From Lutibacter sp. (GTDB lineage Bacteria; Bacteroidota; Bacteroidia; Flavobacteriales; Flavobacteriaceae): 41,135 nucleotides of DNA. The DNA lies in NCBI GenBank assembly GCA_030694935.1, contig JAUYUA010000107.1:1-41135 (forward strand). The letters are read 5' to 3'. Positions 24,240 through 34,696 of this stretch are shown piece after piece. Within the stretch, counting starts at the first letter, position 1; every line of letters starts with the position of its first letter. The notes under the pieces were generated by a model that was not told the DNA's origin, searched no databases, and saw only the letters and a list, made by a program, of their open reading frames with translations. A program made the position numbers and the translations under genes.

Positions 24240-24282
24240 ATTAAAAAAAGAATTTAGTTAAGTAGTAACATTTGTAAAGGTA

Positions 24283-24290
24283 CAAAAATA
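24283..24290 (-). promoter_or_regulatory. -7 box of the Crp/Fnr gene
   Basis: TATTTTTG on the minus strand matches TAnnTTTG. It is separated by 2 bp from the palindrome at 24293-24304, so a bound regulator would be expected to block it. Confidence 0.5.
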
Positions 24291-24292
24291 AA

Positions 24293-24304
24293 TGATAATT
24301 GTCA
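24293..24304. promoter_or_regulatory. Candidate Crp/Fnr operator (copper ATPase / regulator intergenic)
   Basis: TGATAATTGTCA is a TGA-N6-TCA inverted repeat, the core spacing of Crp/Fnr sites. It is 22 bp upstream of the -7 box of the copper ATPase gene (TATTTTTG, 24327-24334), which places its centre about 40 bp before the predicted transcription start, the class II activator position. Confidence 0.65.
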
Positions 24305-24326
24305 TATTTAGAAAATAATAAATGAA

Positions 24327-24334
24327 TATTTTTG
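24327..24334 (+). promoter_or_regulatory. -7 box of the copper ATPase gene
   Basis: TATTTTTG matches TAnnTTTG and lies 19 bp before the ATG at 24354. No -33 box is seen; the upstream palindrome occupies that place. Confidence 0.55.
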
Positions 24335-24353
24335 CGAAGAATTAGAATTTAAA

Positions 24354-26744
24354 ATGGATATAAACAGTTGTTATCATTGCGGAGCCTCTTGTGGTAAAAG
24401 TACAATACTTTTTGATGAAAAACAATTTTGTTGTAATGGCTGTAAAACAGTATATGAGATATTAAGCAACAATGAGTTAGGTTGCTATTATGACATGCAA
24501 TCAACTCCCGGAACGATTCCATCCGACATAAAAGGGAAGTATAATTATCTTGAAAATGAAGATATTATTGAAAAACTGCTCGAATTTAATGATACTGAAA
24601 CTTCCGTTGTTGAATTTTTTATCCCAAGCATTCATTGCAGTTCTTGTATTTGGATTCTCGAAAATTTAACCAAATTAAACAGTGGGGTGACTACTTCAAT
24701 GGTTAATTTTCCAAAAAAAACCGTACGAATCACTTTCAAAAACAAAGCAACCAATTTAAAACAATTGGCAGAATTAATGACTTCCATTGGCTATGAACCA
24801 TACATAAGCTTGGATGATGCGGAGTCTGTTAAGAACAAAGTGGATAAAACGTTAATTTATCAAGTTTCTATTGCCGCTTTTTGTTTCGGAAATATTATGT
24901 TGTTGTCTTTTCCTGAATATTTTGATGCGAATGAGTTTTGGCTCGAAAAATACAAGCATGTATTTAGATGGCTCATGTTTGCCATGGCCATTCCGGTGGT
25001 TTTCTATTCTGCCAAAAATTATTATATTTCGGCCTACAAAGGACTTTCTCATAAAATTTTAAATATTGATGTTCCTATTGCTTTGGGAGTTTCTGTTTTG
25101 TTTATAAGAAGCACCATTGAAATTGCATTTGATATTGGCACAGGTTTTTTTGACAGTTTGGCTGGTTTGGTGTTCTTTTTGCTTTTGGGTAAATTTTTTC
25201 AGCAAAAAACCTACAACTTTTTGTCCTTTGAACGAGACTATAAATCGTACTTTCCAATTGCTGTCACAAAATTGGCTGGCGGAATAGAAAAAAATATTCC
25301 CGTGCAAGATATTGAAAAAGGCGACCGTTTATTAATTAGAAATCAGGAGTTAATTCCTGTCGACGGCATTTTAATCAACGGAAATGCGTCAATAGATTAC
25401 AGTTTTGTCACCGGCGAGTCGATGCCGGTAACCAAACAATCGGGCGATAAACTTTTTGCGGGAGGAAAACAAACCGAAGGCGCCATAGAAATGGAAGTGA
25501 TCAACACCATATCACAAAGCTATTTAACGCAGTTGTGGAGCAACGATGTTTTTAATAAAACCACCGACCATACCATCAAAAATATCACCGACACGATAAG
25601 CAAACTGTTTACCATCAATATTTTGTCCATTTCATTTTTAGGCGGAATTTTTTGGTATTTTCACGATGCATCCATGGTATTTAATGTGGTTACCGCCGTA
25701 CTTATTATCGCTTGTCCTTGTGCTTTGGCATTGTCGGCGCCATTTGCCATTGGCAATATTCTAAGAATTTTTGGCTATCGAAAGTTTTATTTGAAAAATG
25801 CGGAAACCGTTGAAAACCTTGCTAAAATTGATACCATTATTTTTGACAAAACCGGCACCATTACTTCCACAAATAAATCAAATCTTATTTACAGAGGAGA
25901 ATCATTAAGCAGAGAGGAAATTAAAGCTGTAAAAAGTGTTTTAAGAGCCTCAAACCATCCTCTAAGCAGATCACTTTACGATCATATTCAGGAAGAAATT
26001 TTAACAGAAAAACCGGCTTATTTTGAGGAACAGCTCGGAAAAGGTATCCATGCAGTCTTAAATACAACGGATATCAAATTAGGTTCTGCAAGTTTTGTTG
26101 GCGCAACTTCTTCTGAAACCAATGAAACAGCTATTCACATTGCAATAAACAATCAGTATAAAGGAAGTTATATTTTTAAAAATAGCTATAGGGAAGGAAC
26201 AAAAGCCGTTTTTGAAGAACTTTCTAAAAAATATAAATTGGTGATACTTTCTGGTGATAATGATGGGGAAAGAGAATATTTAGAAAAATTTCTGCCTAAA
26301 AACACCTTATTTCAATTTAATCAGAAGCCTGAAAATAAATTAGAATATATTAAAAAATTGCAGCAAAACGGAGAAAAAGTGATGATGGTTGGCGACGGAT
26401 TAAATGATGCCGGTGCCTTGGCGCAAAGCAATGTTGGAATCGTTATTTCAGAAAATGTAAATGTTTTTTCACCTGCATGTGATGGCATACTTGATGCGAA
26501 ATTTTTCAACAAATTACCAAAGTTGTTAGTTATTTCAAATAAAACCTTGACAATTATCAAGACAAGTTTTGTTCTGGCTTTTTGTTATAACGTGATAGGT
26601 TTGTATTTTGCATTAACAGGTGTTTTAACACCTGTTATTGCTGCAATCTTAATGCCTATAAGTTCAATATCCATCGTGATTTTTGTGACGATTATGACAA
26701 ATTTAATTTCAAAAAAATATTTGAAAGAAATCAGGTTGCTTTAA
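24354..26744 (+). CDS. ccoI: Copper-translocating P1B-type ATPase (CcoI/FixI-like)
   Basis: A 796-aa heavy-metal pump of the inner membrane. It opens with a Cys-rich zinc-ribbon-like segment (CYHCGASCG, then CCNGC near 26-30). A metal-binding domain follows with IHCSSCIWILENL (C95, C98). Then come the membrane helices, the actuator motif VTGESMPV (352-359), the copper-site CPC (C454, C456 in ACPCALAL), the phosphorylation site Asp498 in FDKTGTIT, and the MVGDGLNDAGAL hinge. The N-terminal Cys-rich domain and the position next to ccoS-ccoNO identify it as the pump that supplies copper for cbb3 oxidase assembly. Export for detoxification is less likely. Length is normal. Confidence 0.92.
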   Translation: MDINSCYHCGASCGKSTILFDEKQFCCNGCKTVYEILSNNELGCYYDMQSTPGTIPSDIKGKYNYLENEDIIEKLLEFNDTETSVVEFFIPSIHCSSCIWILENLTKLNSGVTTSMVNFPKKTVRITFKNKATNLKQLAELMTSIGYEPYISLDDAESVKNKVDKTLIYQVSIAAFCFGNIMLLSFPEYFDANEFWLEKYKHVFRWLMFAMAIPVVFYSAKNYYISAYKGLSHKILNIDVPIALGVSVLFIRSTIEIAFDIGTGFFDSLAGLVFFLLLGKFFQQKTYNFLSFERDYKSYFPIAVTKLAGGIEKNIPVQDIEKGDRLLIRNQELIPVDGILINGNASIDYSFVTGESMPVTKQSGDKLFAGGKQTEGAIEMEVINTISQSYLTQLWSNDVFNKTTDHTIKNITDTISKLFTINILSISFLGGIFWYFHDASMVFNVVTAVLIIACPCALALSAPFAIGNILRIFGYRKFYLKNAETVENLAKIDTIIFDKTGTITSTNKSNLIYRGESLSREEIKAVKSVLRASNHPLSRSLYDHIQEEILTEKPAYFEEQLGKGIHAVLNTTDIKLGSASFVGATSSETNETAIHIAINNQYKGSYIFKNSYREGTKAVFEELSKKYKLVILSGDNDGEREYLEKFLPKNTLFQFNQKPENKLEYIKKLQQNGEKVMMVGDGLNDAGALAQSNVGIVISENVNVFSPACDGILDAKFFNKLPKLLVISNKTLTIIKTSFVLAFCYNVIGLYFALTGVLTPVIAAILMPISSISIVIFVTIMTNLISKKYLKEIRLL

Positions 26745-26767
26745 AAATAAAAGACCTTAAATTTGTG

Positions 26768-26779
26768 TGACAAATGTCA
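26768..26779. promoter_or_regulatory. Candidate Crp/Fnr operator of the ccoS-NO-Q-P operon
   Basis: TGACAAATGTCA is a TGA-N6-TCA inverted repeat with perfect TGACA/TGTCA arms. It is exactly 22 bp upstream of the -7 box at 26802-26809, the same spacing as at the copper ATPase promoter. Confidence 0.7.
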
Positions 26780-26801
26780 TTTTATTTTCGAAAGTAAAAT
26801 A

Positions 26802-26809
26802 TATATTTG
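26802..26809 (+). promoter_or_regulatory. -7 box of the ccoS-NO-Q-P operon
   Basis: TATATTTG matches TAnnTTTG, 37 bp before the ATG of ccoS. No -33 TTTG is present at the normal distance, consistent with an activator-dependent promoter. Confidence 0.6.
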
Positions 26810-29252: not shown

Positions 29253-29450
29253 ATGTTAAGATTTATATCACATAATTTTGATGGAATGGACGGGATTGAA
29301 ATTTATCCCATAATTTCATTGTTGCTTTTTTTTACTGTTTTTATCACCATGTTAATCATTGTCATAAAAATGCCTAAAAAAAATATCGATGAAATAAGCC
29401 AATTGCCTTTAGATAACAACACTAACAGTAAAGAAAACAATCATGAATAA
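29253..29450 (+). CDS. ccoQ: Small membrane protein, CcoQ-like
   Basis: A 65-aa protein with one strong hydrophobic helix (about 17-39, containing ISLLLFFTVFITMLIIVI) and a polar Asn-rich tail. Its place between ccoNO and ccoP, with a single base after ccoNO and an 8-base overlap with ccoP, is that of ccoQ (FixQ), which stabilises the oxidase. Sequence identity to proteobacterial CcoQ is hard to judge, so the name rests mainly on position and size. Confidence 0.75.
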   Translation: MLRFISHNFDGMDGIEIYPIISLLLFFTVFITMLIIVIKMPKKNIDEISQLPLDNNTNSKENNHE

Positions 29451-30087
29451 GAATTCAGAAAACACATCGTGGTGGAAGAGATTTATGAAATCTATGACCA
29501 AAGCGCACGATTTAGGAACCGAAGAAGACATCATGCTCGATCACGATTATGATGGCATTAAGGAACTCGACAATGTTTTGCCCCCATGGTGGCTGGCAGG
29601 TTTTTACATCACCATTGCTATTAGTATTTTTTATTTAATCATGGTATTTGGTTTCAATAAATACAGTCAGGCCGACGAGCTTAATGATGAAATGGCCAAT
29701 GCAAAAACGGAGATTGAAGCTTATAAAGCAGCAAATCCGCAGTTATTTGATGATGCCAACATTGTTGCTTATTCCGATCCAGAAAATTTGGCAAAAGGAA
29801 AGGAACTGTTTACCGCAAAAACTTGTGTTGTTTGCCATTTGGCGGATTTAGGCGGAAGCATTGGTCCGAATTTAACAGACAATAAATGGATTTTAGGCGG
29901 TGACGTAAAAAGTATTTTTAACACTTTAACAAATGGCGGCAGACCGGGAAAAGGAATGATTGCCTGGGAAAGCACCATTACAAGAGAAGAGCGAATTCAA
30001 TTGGCAAGTTATATTATATCTATGCAGGGAACAAAGCCTGCAGTGCCAAAACCGGAAGAAGGAGATATTGTTTGGCCGGCAGAATAA
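29443..30087 (+). CDS. ccoP: cbb3 oxidase cytochrome c subunit CcoP (monohaem)
   Basis: A 214-aa membrane-anchored cytochrome c. The N-terminal part has the CcoP-type LDHDYDGIKELDNVLPPWW segment followed by one membrane helix (about 52-70). A single c-type haem motif, C128-x-x-C131-H132 (TCVVCH), follows, with GPNLTD and a Met in RPGKGMIAWE as the likely axial ligand. Proteobacterial CcoP usually has two haem-c sites; only one is seen here. It passes electrons to CcoNO. It overlaps ccoQ by 8 bases and is followed by a strong terminator. Confidence 0.94.
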   Translation: MNKNSENTSWWKRFMKSMTKAHDLGTEEDIMLDHDYDGIKELDNVLPPWWLAGFYITIAISIFYLIMVFGFNKYSQADELNDEMANAKTEIEAYKAANPQLFDDANIVAYSDPENLAKGKELFTAKTCVVCHLADLGGSIGPNLTDNKWILGGDVKSIFNTLTNGGRPGKGMIAWESTITREERIQLASYIISMQGTKPAVPKPEEGDIVWPAE

Positions 30088-30260: not shown

Positions 30261-31676
30261 ATGAAAACAGAAAATAACGAGAGATTTAGAGACTCCATCG
30301 GAACCATAGACGAAAGCGGAAAACGTAATTTTATTTTTCCGAAAAAACCAAAAGGAAAATTTTATAACTATAGAACAATGGTGGGCTGGGTGCTTTTGGC
30401 ATTTATGTTCGCGGCGCCTTTTATTAAAGTCAACGGAAATCAGTTTTTGCTTTTTAACGTTATTGAAAGAAAATTTCACATTTTCGGATTCCCTTTTTGG
30501 CCGCAAGATTTTCATTTGCTGGTCATATCTTTGCTGGTGAGCGTGGTGTTTATCATTTTATTCACGGTGGTTTTTGGCAGAATATTTTGTGGATGGATTT
30601 GCCCGCAAACTATTTTTATGGAAATGATTTTCAGAAAAGTGGAATATTTAATCGATGGAGACAGAACCAAACAAATAAAACTCGATAAACAAGCTTGGAA
30701 TGCTGAAAAAATAAGAAAACGCGTTACAAAATGGATTGCTTTTTTTCTCATATCATTCATCATTGCCAATGTTTTCTTTGCTTATATTATTGGCAGCGAT
30801 GTTTTAATCGAACACATTATTGATGGGCCATTAAATCATATTGGAACTTTGGTAAAACTTTTGGTTTTTACCATGGTTTTCTATTTTGTGTTTGCGTGGT
30901 TTAGGGAACAAGTATGTATCATTGTTTGTCCGTACGGCAGGTTGCAAGGCGTTCTTTTAGACAACAAGTCTATTAATGTGGCTTATGATTTTGTAAGGGG
31001 AGAAGGCGAAAAAGGAAGAAAACCCTTGCGTAAAGATGAAAACAGAGAGGAATCCGGTTATGGAGATTGTGTCTCATGTATGCAATGCGTTCAGGTTTGT
31101 CCTACAGGAATCGACATCAGAAACGGAACACAACTGGAATGCATCAACTGCACCGCCTGTATTGATGCTTGTGATGAAATTATGGATAAAGTTGGTTATG
31201 AAAGAGGGTTGATTCGTTATGCTTCAGAAGACGATATAGAAAAAAAGGAAAAATTTAAATTTAATGCACGTTTAATTGCTTATTCAGCGTTGTTAACTGT
31301 GTTGGTAGGTGTACTTGTTGCGATGTTATTTTTGCGAAATGATGTGGAAGCCACCATTTTGAGGTTGCCCGGACAAATATTTCAAACAACGGAAACTACC
31401 GTAAAAAATGTTTACACCTTCAAATTAATCAATAAAACGAATAAAAATATTGAAAATATAGATATTAAATTAATTTCACATAACGGAAAAGTTGAAATGA
31501 TAGGCGGACTTTCCAAAGTGGAAAAACAGGGATTGAAGGAAGGTACTTTATTTATTGAAATTGACAAAAAAGACCTAAATTCGTCAAATGAAAAGTTAAA
31601 AGTTGGGGTGTATTCGGAAGGGAAACTGATTGAAGCAACAACCACCAATTTTGCAGGACCCATAAAAATTAATTAG
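30261..31676 (+). CDS. ccoG: cbb3 oxidase accessory protein CcoG (FixG/RdxA)
   Basis: A 471-aa membrane ferredoxin-like protein. Several hydrophobic helices flank conserved Cys motifs GRIFCGWICPQT and QVCIIVCPYGRLQG. Two [4Fe-4S] clusters are predicted in CVSCMQCVQVCP and CINCTACIDACD. A C-terminal helix is followed by an immunoglobulin-like domain (about 365-471). CcoG is proposed to act in copper reduction during cbb3 assembly. The gene follows ccoP after a terminator and has its own -7 box; fixH and the SafE-family gene follow. Confidence 0.95.
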   Translation: MKTENNERFRDSIGTIDESGKRNFIFPKKPKGKFYNYRTMVGWVLLAFMFAAPFIKVNGNQFLLFNVIERKFHIFGFPFWPQDFHLLVISLLVSVVFIILFTVVFGRIFCGWICPQTIFMEMIFRKVEYLIDGDRTKQIKLDKQAWNAEKIRKRVTKWIAFFLISFIIANVFFAYIIGSDVLIEHIIDGPLNHIGTLVKLLVFTMVFYFVFAWFREQVCIIVCPYGRLQGVLLDNKSINVAYDFVRGEGEKGRKPLRKDENREESGYGDCVSCMQCVQVCPTGIDIRNGTQLECINCTACIDACDEIMDKVGYERGLIRYASEDDIEKKEKFKFNARLIAYSALLTVLVGVLVAMLFLRNDVEATILRLPGQIFQTTETTVKNVYTFKLINKTNKNIENIDIKLISHNGKVEMIGGLSKVEKQGLKEGTLFIEIDKKDLNSSNEKLKVGVYSEGKLIEATTTNFAGPIKIN

Positions 31677-31765: not shown

Positions 31766-32218
31766 ATGAATTTTAAAATCAGTTGGCCAACAGGCATTGT
31801 ACTTGCCTTGTCGGCATTTATCATATTCATATTGTCTTTCGTTTATAAGGCAGTTTTTGTGCCTGGATATGACCATCATTTGGTTTCTGCTGATTATTAT
31901 AAAGATGAAATGAATTATCAACAAGAAATTGATAAATTGAATAAAGCCGCAGCCTTAAACGAAGATGTCACTTTAACAAAAGTTGCTGAAGGCTTGTTAA
32001 TTAAATTTCCTGCGGAATTTGATCCCGAAAAAATAGCTGGGACAATTTCGTTTCAACGACCTTCCAACGAAAAAATTGATTTTCAGCTTCCCATAAAATT
32101 AACAACCGTCGATTATTTAATATTGGATGATAATTTGGTGCAAGGAATTTGGAATGTGAAAATTGAATGGACTGTAAACAGCAACACTTATTTATTTAAG
32201 GAAAAATTAAGGTACTAA
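31766..32218 (+). CDS. fixH: FixH family protein (CcoH)
   Basis: A 150-aa membrane-anchored protein with one N-terminal helix (about 7-30, GIVLALSAFIIFILSFVYKA) and a periplasmic beta-rich domain. The motif VSADYYKDEMNYQQEIDKL after the helix is typical of FixH. The family supports cbb3 oxidase assembly, probably with the copper ATPase. It follows ccoG after a short repeat-containing leader and ends one base before the next gene. Confidence 0.9.
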   Translation: MNFKISWPTGIVLALSAFIIFILSFVYKAVFVPGYDHHLVSADYYKDEMNYQQEIDKLNKAAALNEDVTLTKVAEGLLIKFPAEFDPEKIAGTISFQRPSNEKIDFQLPIKLTTVDYLILDDNLVQGIWNVKIEWTVNSNTYLFKEKLRY

Positions 32219-33047: not shown

Positions 33048-33905
33048 ATGAAAGAAACTCCTAAATTGACCATCGAAGATTTTGAAAGAGTGTCTTCAAA
33101 CCAAGAACTTTTAAAACTCATTAAGCAAAAAAATATTCCTTTTGATAGGGTGGCAAAACGATTGTTTTATGAAGAAGAGTTGCGCAATTTACAAATTGAA
33201 TTGGTGAAGCTGCAGCAGTGGATTTCAAAAAATAAAATGCGTGTGGCCATTATTTTTGAAGGACGGGATGCCGCAGGAAAAGGAGGGAATATTCGCAGGT
33301 TTACGGAACATTTAAATCCGCGTGCGATGAATGTGGTGGCTTTAACAAAACCTACTGAGATTGAACGTGGCCAATGGTATTTTAGACGATATATTAAAGA
33401 AATGCCTAATGCTGGGGAAATTGTATTTTTCGACAGAAGTTGGTATAATAGAGCTGTTGTTGAGCCTGTTATGGGATTTTGCACAGAAACCCAATATCAA
33501 AATTTTATGGTTCAGGTTTCTGAATTTGAGCATATGATGTATGAAGACGGAATGGTTTTGATAAAATTTTGGTTTTCCATTTCAAAAGAAGAGCAGCAGT
33601 CACGTTTCAATGCGCGCATTGCGACACCGCTAAAACGATGGAAATTTAGTCCGGTCGATAGGAAAAGTCAGGAACTTTGGGATAAATATACGCATTACAA
33701 GGAGCAAATGTATAGTCGCACACACACCAGCTACAGTCCGTGGATTACCGTTAAAGCTAACGATAAAAAATTGGCGCGTTTGGAAAGTATCCGATACGTA
33801 TTGTCTCAATTTAACTATGAAGGAAAAGAAAATGCATCAACCATATTGTTTCCAGATCCAAACATTGTGATGCGTTATTACCGTTCAGCCAAACAAATAG
33901 ATTAA
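33048..33905 (+). CDS. Polyphosphate kinase 2 family protein, copy 1
   Basis: A 285-aa PPK2 enzyme, which transfers phosphate between polyphosphate and nucleotides. Walker A is EGRDAAGKGG (71-80). The lid region RGQWYFRRYI and Walker B FFDRSWYNRAVVEPVMGFC follow, with Asp129 and an acidic Glu139. The length and single domain fit class I PPK2. The gene overlaps the next PPK2 gene by one base (TAATG). The product direction (NTP or polyphosphate synthesis) cannot be decided by sight. Confidence 0.93.
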   Translation: MKETPKLTIEDFERVSSNQELLKLIKQKNIPFDRVAKRLFYEEELRNLQIELVKLQQWISKNKMRVAIIFEGRDAAGKGGNIRRFTEHLNPRAMNVVALTKPTEIERGQWYFRRYIKEMPNAGEIVFFDRSWYNRAVVEPVMGFCTETQYQNFMVQVSEFEHMMYEDGMVLIKFWFSISKEEQQSRFNARIATPLKRWKFSPVDRKSQELWDKYTHYKEQMYSRTHTSYSPWITVKANDKKLARLESIRYVLSQFNYEGKENASTILFPDPNIVMRYYRSAKQID

Positions 33906-34696
33906 TGATGAAGCCGTATAAATTAACTGAAACTGACGTTGAAATTCTCAACACGAATAAAGGTTTAAGGGCTTTATTTTCAAAAGAACCCTATAATCTT
34001 GAAAAAGCTGTTCGTTTTGTTAAATATGAAAATAAATTAAAAAAACTTCAGGTTGAATTAATCCGATTGCAAACTTGGGCCATTGAAGAAAATGAACGAA
34101 TCATGATTATTTTCGAAGGAAGGGATGTAGCCGGAAAAGGTGGTGCCATTAGGCGCGCAACCGAGCGGATGAATCCGCGGCATTATCGCATAGTGGCTTT
34201 GCCAAAACCCACCGAAGATGAGCGTTCTCAGTGGTATTTTCAGCGATATGTTATTCAATTTCCAAAAGCCGGTGAAATCGTTTTTTTCGACAGAAGTTGG
34301 TATAATAGGGCAGTAGTTGCTCCGGTAAACGGTTTTTGCACGCAACATGAGTATGAAATTTTCATGAATCAGGTAAACGACTTTGAGCGAATGATTACAG
34401 AATCGGGCATTCATTTAGTGAAAATTTACATGTCCATTTCCAAAAAAGAGCAGGCCAAACGCTTTGAGGAATTAAAAGGCGATCCATTAAAACAATGGAA
34501 AATAACGCCTGTTGATGAAAGAGCCCAAGAACTATGGGATGTTTATACCTATTATAAAAATAAAATGTTTGAAAAAACAAAAGAAGGCGTGGTTGACTGG
34601 AAAATAATAAAAGCAAATAAAAAAACGTATGCCAGGGTTGTGGCCATTAACCATATTTTAAGCAGTATTCCTTATGATAAAAAACGGGAAATTTAA
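33905..34696 (+). CDS. Polyphosphate kinase 2 family protein, copy 2
   Basis: A 263-aa paralogue of the preceding gene, aligned residue for residue around the active site. Walker A EGRDVAGKGG lies at 71-80 and Walker B FFDRSWYNRAVVAPVNGFC has Asp129. Two active-site changes relative to copy 1 stand out: Glu139 becomes Ala139, and the VMGFC stretch becomes VNGFC. The catalytic lysine and Walker Asp are kept, so it may still be active with altered substrate preference. It starts one base into the stop codon of copy 1 and overlaps the convergent hutI gene by 4 bases. Confidence 0.92.
   Translation: MMKPYKLTETDVEILNTNKGLRALFSKEPYNLEKAVRFVKYENKLKKLQVELIRLQTWAIEENERIMIIFEGRDVAGKGGAIRRATERMNPRHYRIVALPKPTEDERSQWYFQRYVIQFPKAGEIVFFDRSWYNRAVVAPVNGFCTQHEYEIFMNQVNDFERMITESGIHLVKIYMSISKKEQAKRFEELKGDPLKQWKITPVDERAQELWDVYTYYKNKMFEKTKEGVVDWKIIKANKKTYARVVAINHILSSIPYDKKREI

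Follow-up and report, generated by a model that had tools for sequence, protein, structure and literature searches.

The Crp/Fnr-type oxygen sensor FNR of E. coli and A. fischeri reads TTGAT..ATCAA operators and holds its oxygen-labile [4Fe-4S] cluster with C20, C23, C29 and C122; oxygen-sensitive oxidoreductases and FeoB are typical of its regulon. For FNR, as for Crp, the class II position places the centre of the operator near -41.5. In alphaproteobacteria, FixL-FixJ-FixK controls fixNOQP and fixGHIS, so that cbb3 oxidase genes are under a Crp/Fnr-type activator. Regarding the Bacteroidota, known or predicted Crp/Fnr regulators include CrpPg, PgRsp, HcpR and MalR-like proteins, and the sections considered of PMC6955866 and PMC12040651 deal with Porphyromonas regulators. 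For a Flavobacteriales Crp/Fnr protein, the sections considered of PMC8510549 predict carbon sensing, not a role in oxygen and cbb3. The cbb3 oxidase of Flavobacterium psychrophilum is strongly up-regulated under oxygen limitation, according to the part of PMC9723704 considered, and searching the main text of this paper for the words Fnr and Crp returned neither. For Flavobacteriaceae, our searches of the open-licence literature gave no description of FNR-type sites at cbb3 genes, or of oxygen control of respiration resolved to binding sites. Here we analyze one contig of Lutibacter sp. (C71, 41,135 bp, from a draft genome of 3.22 Mb), which we refer to as the window. It carries a cco cluster for a cbb3 oxidase, a gene for an FNR-like regulator of the same superfamily as the Bacteroidota proteins above, and two TGA-N6-TCA palindromes, one upstream of ccoI, which encodes a copper ATPase, and one upstream of ccoS.

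A preliminary description of this locus had placed each palindrome exactly 22 bp before a TAnnTTTG -7 box. This observation is firmly confirmed: palindromes and boxes are found in the window sequence at the positions given by that description, with exactly 22 bp in each pair (Table 1). As it had also stated, neither promoter shows a -33 TTTG, since by eye none is present in the window 14-26 nt upstream of either -7 box. Among 120 cco promoters with the exact architecture (a count that includes three duplicate loci), ten have a TTTG at that distance. In F. psychrophilum, the sigma-A -7 box TAnnTTTG sits at -12 to -5 (PMC9723704, in the part considered). Because of this, the palindromes would be centred at -40.5/-41.5 if the transcription starts of ccoI and ccoS follow the same rule, in agreement with the class II placement proposed earlier. 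The TGA-N6-TCA core and this predicted position are shared with FNR; unlike the FNR operator, the palindromes are mostly A/T-flanked (ATGA..TCAT) and are paired with a Bacteroidota -7 box.

To establish how widely the sites are kept, we compared 114 loci, 37 from the genus (the window included) and 77 from other Flavobacteriaceae or related metagenome-assembled genomes (MAGs), with genome G024 supplying two contigs. Three duplicates (L074-L076, identical to genome regions in the set) were excluded from these counts, as well as from those on autoregulation, on presence or absence of the FNR-like protein and on spacing. We searched the 160 bp upstream of each gene and estimated the chance rate with a Markov model of each region. 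TGA-N6-TCA precedes ccoI in 36/37 genus loci and 60/61 others (96/98 in total), and ccoS in 27/30 and 75/76 (102/106), with about 5.0 of the 98 ccoI regions and 4.6 of the 106 ccoS regions expected. Loss of the palindrome from orthologous ccoS genes had been named beforehand as the result that would refute the proposal, and what we see is almost complete retention. As controls, we counted the same palindrome upstream of ccoG (2/26 in the genus, 4/70 elsewhere; 6/96), ccoNO (0/29 and 1/76; 1/105) and ccoP (8/27 and 3/71; 11/98). The ccoP control exceeds chance in the genus (8/27 versus 1.1 expected); these palindromes show no TAnnTTTG 10-40 bp downstream.

We counted a TAnnTTTG box as present if at least five of its six fixed letters matched. 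Such a box follows the palindrome at 21-24 bp in 36/37 ccoI and 27/30 ccoS regions of the genus, and in 56/61 and 75/76 of those from other Flavobacteriaceae, compared with 8% of random anchors. Genus loci mostly have a gap of 22 bp, the other loci one of 23 bp. The identical 22-bp distance, as first described, is a trait of the genus: outside it, ccoS mostly shows 23 bp and ccoI mostly a one-letter-off box at 23 bp. One could argue that the palindromes are chance matches, given an AT-rich region, a short motif and a ccoP control above expectation, or that they belong to some other element, for instance a terminator. However, presence in 96/98 and 102/106 loci against an expected 5% or so, the fixed spacing and the 8.7-fold excess over the reversed pattern described below leave this a negligible probability, and we reject it. 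Besides, a T-n-TTTT immediately following the TCA of the palindrome is conserved at ccoS and, outside the genus, at ccoI; a -33 element would fall roughly there.

The scan of the genome and of related Flavobacteriaceae that the preliminary description had called for gave a genome-wide excess, on top of the retention before ccoI and ccoS. The exact 22-bp pattern has 7 matches in the genome of the window versus 0 for the reversed control, and 25 versus 1 when the gap is allowed to vary from 21 to 23 bp. With this latter pattern, 38 genus genomes gave 1113 matches versus 128 for the reversed controls, ranging from 8 to 49 per genome. Leaving the gap free from 8 to 38 bp in the genome of the window gave 81 matches (23 for the reversed controls), 22 of which have a gap of 22-23 bp, compared with 3.9 predicted from the other gaps (Poisson p ~2e-10). 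The sites are hence not particular to the two promoters for which they were first noted, which are two among a few dozen matches in most genus genomes. These results support the reading of both palindromes as conserved class II-type Crp/Fnr sites. They offer a concrete motif with a fixed spacing to the distinctive Bacteroidota -7 box, and suggest that class II activation works with the unusual promoter of this phylum.

As for the protein that might read them, the regulator is divergent from and close to ccoI in 82 loci (37 from the genus and 45 others). Its best NCBIfam match is the Fnr subfamily, with 87.2 bits for a cut-off of 228 that is not reached, and its predicted fold matches Crp/Fnr structures (Foldseek). 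The closest solved structure, by sequence and by fold, is CrpPg (2gau), which, unlike the regulator, has no cysteine at the positions matching C53 and C106. The E-x3-R recognition pair is shared with FNR; E191 and R195, pointed out from the window alone, are invariant in 83/83 aligned proteins. Four cysteines (C4, C7, C53 and C106) are all present in 82 of these 83, the lone exception (L091) being a protein of another kind described below, and in 5/5 orthologs located elsewhere in their genomes. In the more distant paralogs that we read out the set is incomplete; L217, with 33% identity, has three of them and lacks C53. C4, C7 and C106 align with C20, C23 and C122 of FNR, while the conserved C53, in the beta-roll, aligns with an alanine. 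From this we infer a four-cysteine cluster with one displaced ligand.

We then turned to loci without an orthologous neighbour beside ccoI, or ending early, and searched the 26 genomes concerned (L114 and L117 left out). An ortholog of the FNR-like regulator was found in 10 of them, and none in 15 others and in Capnocytophaga. The ccoS palindrome is kept in 15/15 of the genomes without ortholog, and the ccoI palindrome in all 10 of their readable ccoI regions. Thirteen of the 15 carry a receiver-Crp protein (REC-Crp) matched over nearly its whole length, the other two being small MAGs. In 3/3 REC-Crp proteins scanned, the receiver, the cNMP fold and a Crp-type helix-turn-helix belong to one protein. 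This differs from FixL-FixJ-FixK, where FixJ, a receiver with an output of its own, and FixK are separate proteins; the FixJ and FixK steps would here be fused. The recognition helices of the REC-Crp of the window genome (ATETFIRTLSDFKRDG) and of the regulator next to ccoI (ATESAIRLLSNLKKDG) are close.

REC-Crp neighbourhoods were inspected in 19 loci, 18 of them distinct (L091 and L227 are the same place). A PAS histidine kinase gene precedes REC-Crp in 17/18, a universal stress protein (usp) gene follows in 16/18, and the motif (TGA-N6-TCA, 21-24 bp, TAnnTTTG) appears directly after the REC-Crp gene in 11/18, including that of Psychroflexus (L221), which has no FNR-like ortholog. In L228 and L229, kinase, REC-Crp, usp and FNR-like genes are grouped beside ccoI; in L091 this place is taken by REC-Crp and usp. 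The order PAS kinase, REC-Crp, usp can be seen at L220:2806-5102 (contig C34 of the window genome), L221, L228, L229 and L091. The PAS kinase is a feature in common with the alphaproteobacterial system: for the two kinases tested, FixL is the nearest to the PAS domain among solved structures. At the position of the FixL haem ligand, a histidine, 14/14 kinases have a histidine as well (by eye); the kinase of the window genome lacks, by eye, the FixL-type arginine.

Two readings in which one protein is the sole or the main reader of both sites have to be weighed against these data. In the first, the neighbouring FNR-like regulator is their sole reader and REC-Crp has other targets. Its place beside ccoI fits this, as do six genomes in which it is present and REC-Crp was not found: G009 and G029, both 99% complete and keeping both sites, and four Tenacibaculum genomes that keep the ccoS site. 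REC-Crp is detected at E <= 1e-40, the threshold applied to G009 and G029, in 32/38 genus genomes. Sites are also stricter where the FNR-like protein is present: 140/169 fit TGAYANNTRTCA with it and 12/25 without it (Fisher p = 3e-4, phylogeny uncorrected), or 83/106 versus 12/25 if the genus is excluded (p = 0.005, also uncorrected), L114, L117, L143, L147 and L151 being omitted from the comparison. On the other hand, the 13 genomes with REC-Crp and no FNR-like ortholog keep the ccoS site, the two recognition helices are similar, and the motif follows REC-Crp genes, once in a genome without FNR-like protein, so we consider this first reading unlikely. In the second, the cco promoters are chiefly activated by REC-Crp, while the neighbour serves mostly to adjust them or to control its own gene. 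The same 13 genomes and the REC-Crp genes beside ccoI in L228, L229 and L091 speak for it, but the sites kept without detectable REC-Crp in G009, G029 and Tenacibaculum do not, and we find it more doubtful still.

In Capnocytophaga (L151), where neither protein was matched, there is no palindrome before ccoS, although this is a single case. The ccoS site is kept with either regulator alone, and is absent from this one genome with neither. The sites thus look like an input that two regulators share, and the simplest reading is a single operator with two readers, acting alternatively or jointly. The earlier proposal that the neighbour drives co-activation stands as far as the conserved class II-type sites and the invariant E/R pair are concerned, and its role as sole reader is not established.

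A point absent from the preliminary description is that the regulator has a predicted promoter of its own, which the ccoI palindrome overlaps. Among the 82 divergent loci, an exact CAAAnnTA on the regulator side is separated from the palindrome by 10 bp in 15 of the genus loci and by 2 bp in 19, and by 9-11 bp in 22 of the other loci. In seven more of the other loci the separation is 23 bp (two Arenibacter, Zobellia, Cellulophaga, a Maribacter MAG and two further Flavobacteriaceae). In the window, the exact box TATTTTTG is 2 bp from the palindrome and the one-letter-off TACCTTTA is 10 bp from it. An operator overlapping the promoter in this way (2 or 10 bp), as in Lutibacter and Flavobacterium, would repress the regulator. 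At 23 bp from its candidate -7 box, as in the group of Arenibacter, Zobellia, Cellulophaga and Maribacter, the operator would take the class II position and activate it. The distances suggest opposite autoregulation, which we put forward strictly as a prediction.

Taken together, we propose to read the palindromes as FNR-type operators that occupy the class II position, with a centre near -40.5, and through which low oxygen would jointly switch on ccoI, for copper supply, and the ccoS-ccoNO-ccoP cluster, for the cbb3 oxidase. The FNR-like regulator beside ccoI would read them, probably sensing oxygen via a cluster on C4, C7, C53 and C106. In genomes that have it, the one studied here included, REC-Crp, driven by the FixL-like PAS kinase, probably reads them too. 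The comparison of loci gives good support to the predicted direct co-activation by a Crp/Fnr protein. To the explanation as a whole (class II FNR-type operators, two readers, low-oxygen co-activation and autoregulation that depends on the operator) we assign a probability of roughly 0.75. More tentatively, and with slightly less than even odds, the operator may combine two oxygen inputs to the cbb3 oxidase of Flavobacteriaceae. One would be a variant of FNR with its third ligand moved from the N-terminal loop to the beta-roll, and the other a FixL-like kinase with a REC-Crp that is FixJ and FixK in one. The operator would persist in lineages that retain one reader, the other or both, and its distance to the regulator's own promoter would flip autoregulation from repression to activation. 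The system gives two candidate oxygen-linked regulators, and offers a natural case in which an operator outlasts a change of reader.

Several observations weigh against this explanation. Outside the genus, ccoI has a weak -7 box, one letter off and in the 23-bp register in 51/61 regions. Three genus genomes (G013, G021 and G028) have the FNR-like gene without a ccoS palindrome. Besides G009 and G029, four genus genomes have no REC-Crp at E <= 1e-40; they are less complete, and two of them (G013 and G028) are among those without the ccoS palindrome. Conversely, the MAGs G053 and G061 keep the ccoS site with neither regulator found at the thresholds used, maybe through incompleteness; G061 has a 149-aa Crp/Fnr fragment. 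The REC-Crp locus of the window genome has no motif after the gene, and the comparison of site strictness with TGAYANNTRTCA ignores phylogeny. Regarding the cluster, no cysteine of the regulator matches C29, so the four ligand cysteines of FNR are not all found, and the model contains no ligand and has an N-terminus of low confidence (predicted local distance difference test, pLDDT, <50 at residues 1-3 and 5-7). Finally, some of the genome sites probably belong to another paralog.

In most genus genomes the matches outline a putative regulon comprising a few dozen promoters. Targets were named by their best NCBIfam match; among those mentioned here, scores above the curated cut-off were obtained only for FeoB, VorB, the 2-oxoacid subunit and ferredoxin. 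In the genome of the window, one palindrome (L184:2753-2764, contig C1) precedes a ferredoxin gene and, in the opposite direction, a 2-oxoacid:acceptor oxidoreductase alpha subunit gene. It is 22-23 bp from TAnnTTTG on both sides, as is the one at L251 in G001, and so could activate in both directions. Further sites precede genes for indolepyruvate and VorB-type oxidoreductases, a CcsB-type protein, a NuoA-like protein, a SulP transporter and an iron-sulphur protein of the tetrathionate/dimethyl sulphoxide (DMSO) reductase type. The FeoB site has a 24-bp gap and is 256 nt upstream of the start codon. Several other predicted targets gave no informative NCBIfam match. In G001, where we examined 20 of 37 matches plus the ccoI and ccoS regions, a site lies upstream of the orthologs of nine targets of the window genome (fadL-like, ccsB-type, vor, nuoA-like, ferredoxin, 2-oxoacid oxidoreductase, the L187 lipoprotein, SulP and the L188 protein). 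As a set, with FeoB included, the predicted targets resemble an FNR regulon and fit low oxygen.

Three sites of the window genome (those of SulP, the iron-sulphur protein and a YeeE-like transporter) carry TCACAAAA after the core, and may belong to a Crp/Fnr paralog encoded on contig C70 or to a second paralog beside it. Three sites of this genome share TGAT-N4-ATCACAAAA, perhaps a separate regulon. Two Crp/Fnr-like genes are found near YeeE-like transporter genes in L199 (C70:4617-6948 of the window genome), L194 and L197. The C70 paralog was also considered as a reader of the cco sites and thought unlikely, its helix (RVVISR) having no Glu by eye.

Table 1. Features of the cco locus in the window (strand: +, forward; -, reverse;., none assigned).
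Feature	Position	Strand	Basis or remark
FNR-like Crp/Fnr regulator, 228 aa	23553..24239	-	Pfam cNMP_binding and HTH_Crp_2; conserved C4, C7, C53, C106; E191/R195 recognition pair
Candidate -7 boxes (two) for the regulator gene	24275..24290	-	TACCTTTA at 24275-24282 and TATTTTTG at 24283-24290
TGATAATTGTCA palindrome, between regulator and ccoI	24293..24304	.	Conserved before ccoI in 96/98 loci
TATTTTTG, predicted ccoI -7 box	24327..24334	+	22 bp downstream of the TGATAATTGTCA palindrome
CcoI/FixI-type copper P-type ATPase, 796 aa	24354..26744	+	Pfam E1-E2_ATPase, HMA, ATPase-cat_bd; place in the cco cluster
TGACAAATGTCA palindrome, between ccoI and ccoS	26768..26779	.	Conserved before ccoS in 102/106 loci
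TATATTTG, predicted ccoS -7 box	26802..26809	+	22 bp downstream of the TGACAAATGTCA palindrome
ccoS, cbb3 oxidase maturation protein, 70 aa	26847..27059	+	Pfam FixS; TIGR00847 ccoS above cut-off
ccoNO, fused cbb3 oxidase subunits I/II, 725 aa	27074..29251	+	Pfam COX1 and FixO; NF011053 above cut-off
ccoP, cbb3 oxidase subunit III	29443..30087	+	Pfam FixP_N, Cytochrome_CBB3
ccoG/fixG, cbb3 accessory protein	30261..31676	+	Pfam Fer4_18, FixG_C
ccoH/fixH, cbb3 accessory protein	31766..32218	+	Pfam FixH

The regulator gene, on the minus strand, is divergent from ccoI, which is followed by ccoS, the fused ccoNO, ccoP, ccoG and ccoH. For CcoI, the top NCBIfam models are heavy-metal/copper ATPases, with scores under their cut-offs. 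Further downstream, at 33048-34696 of the window, we noticed by eye two similar adjoining genes that look like members of the polyphosphate kinase 2 family.

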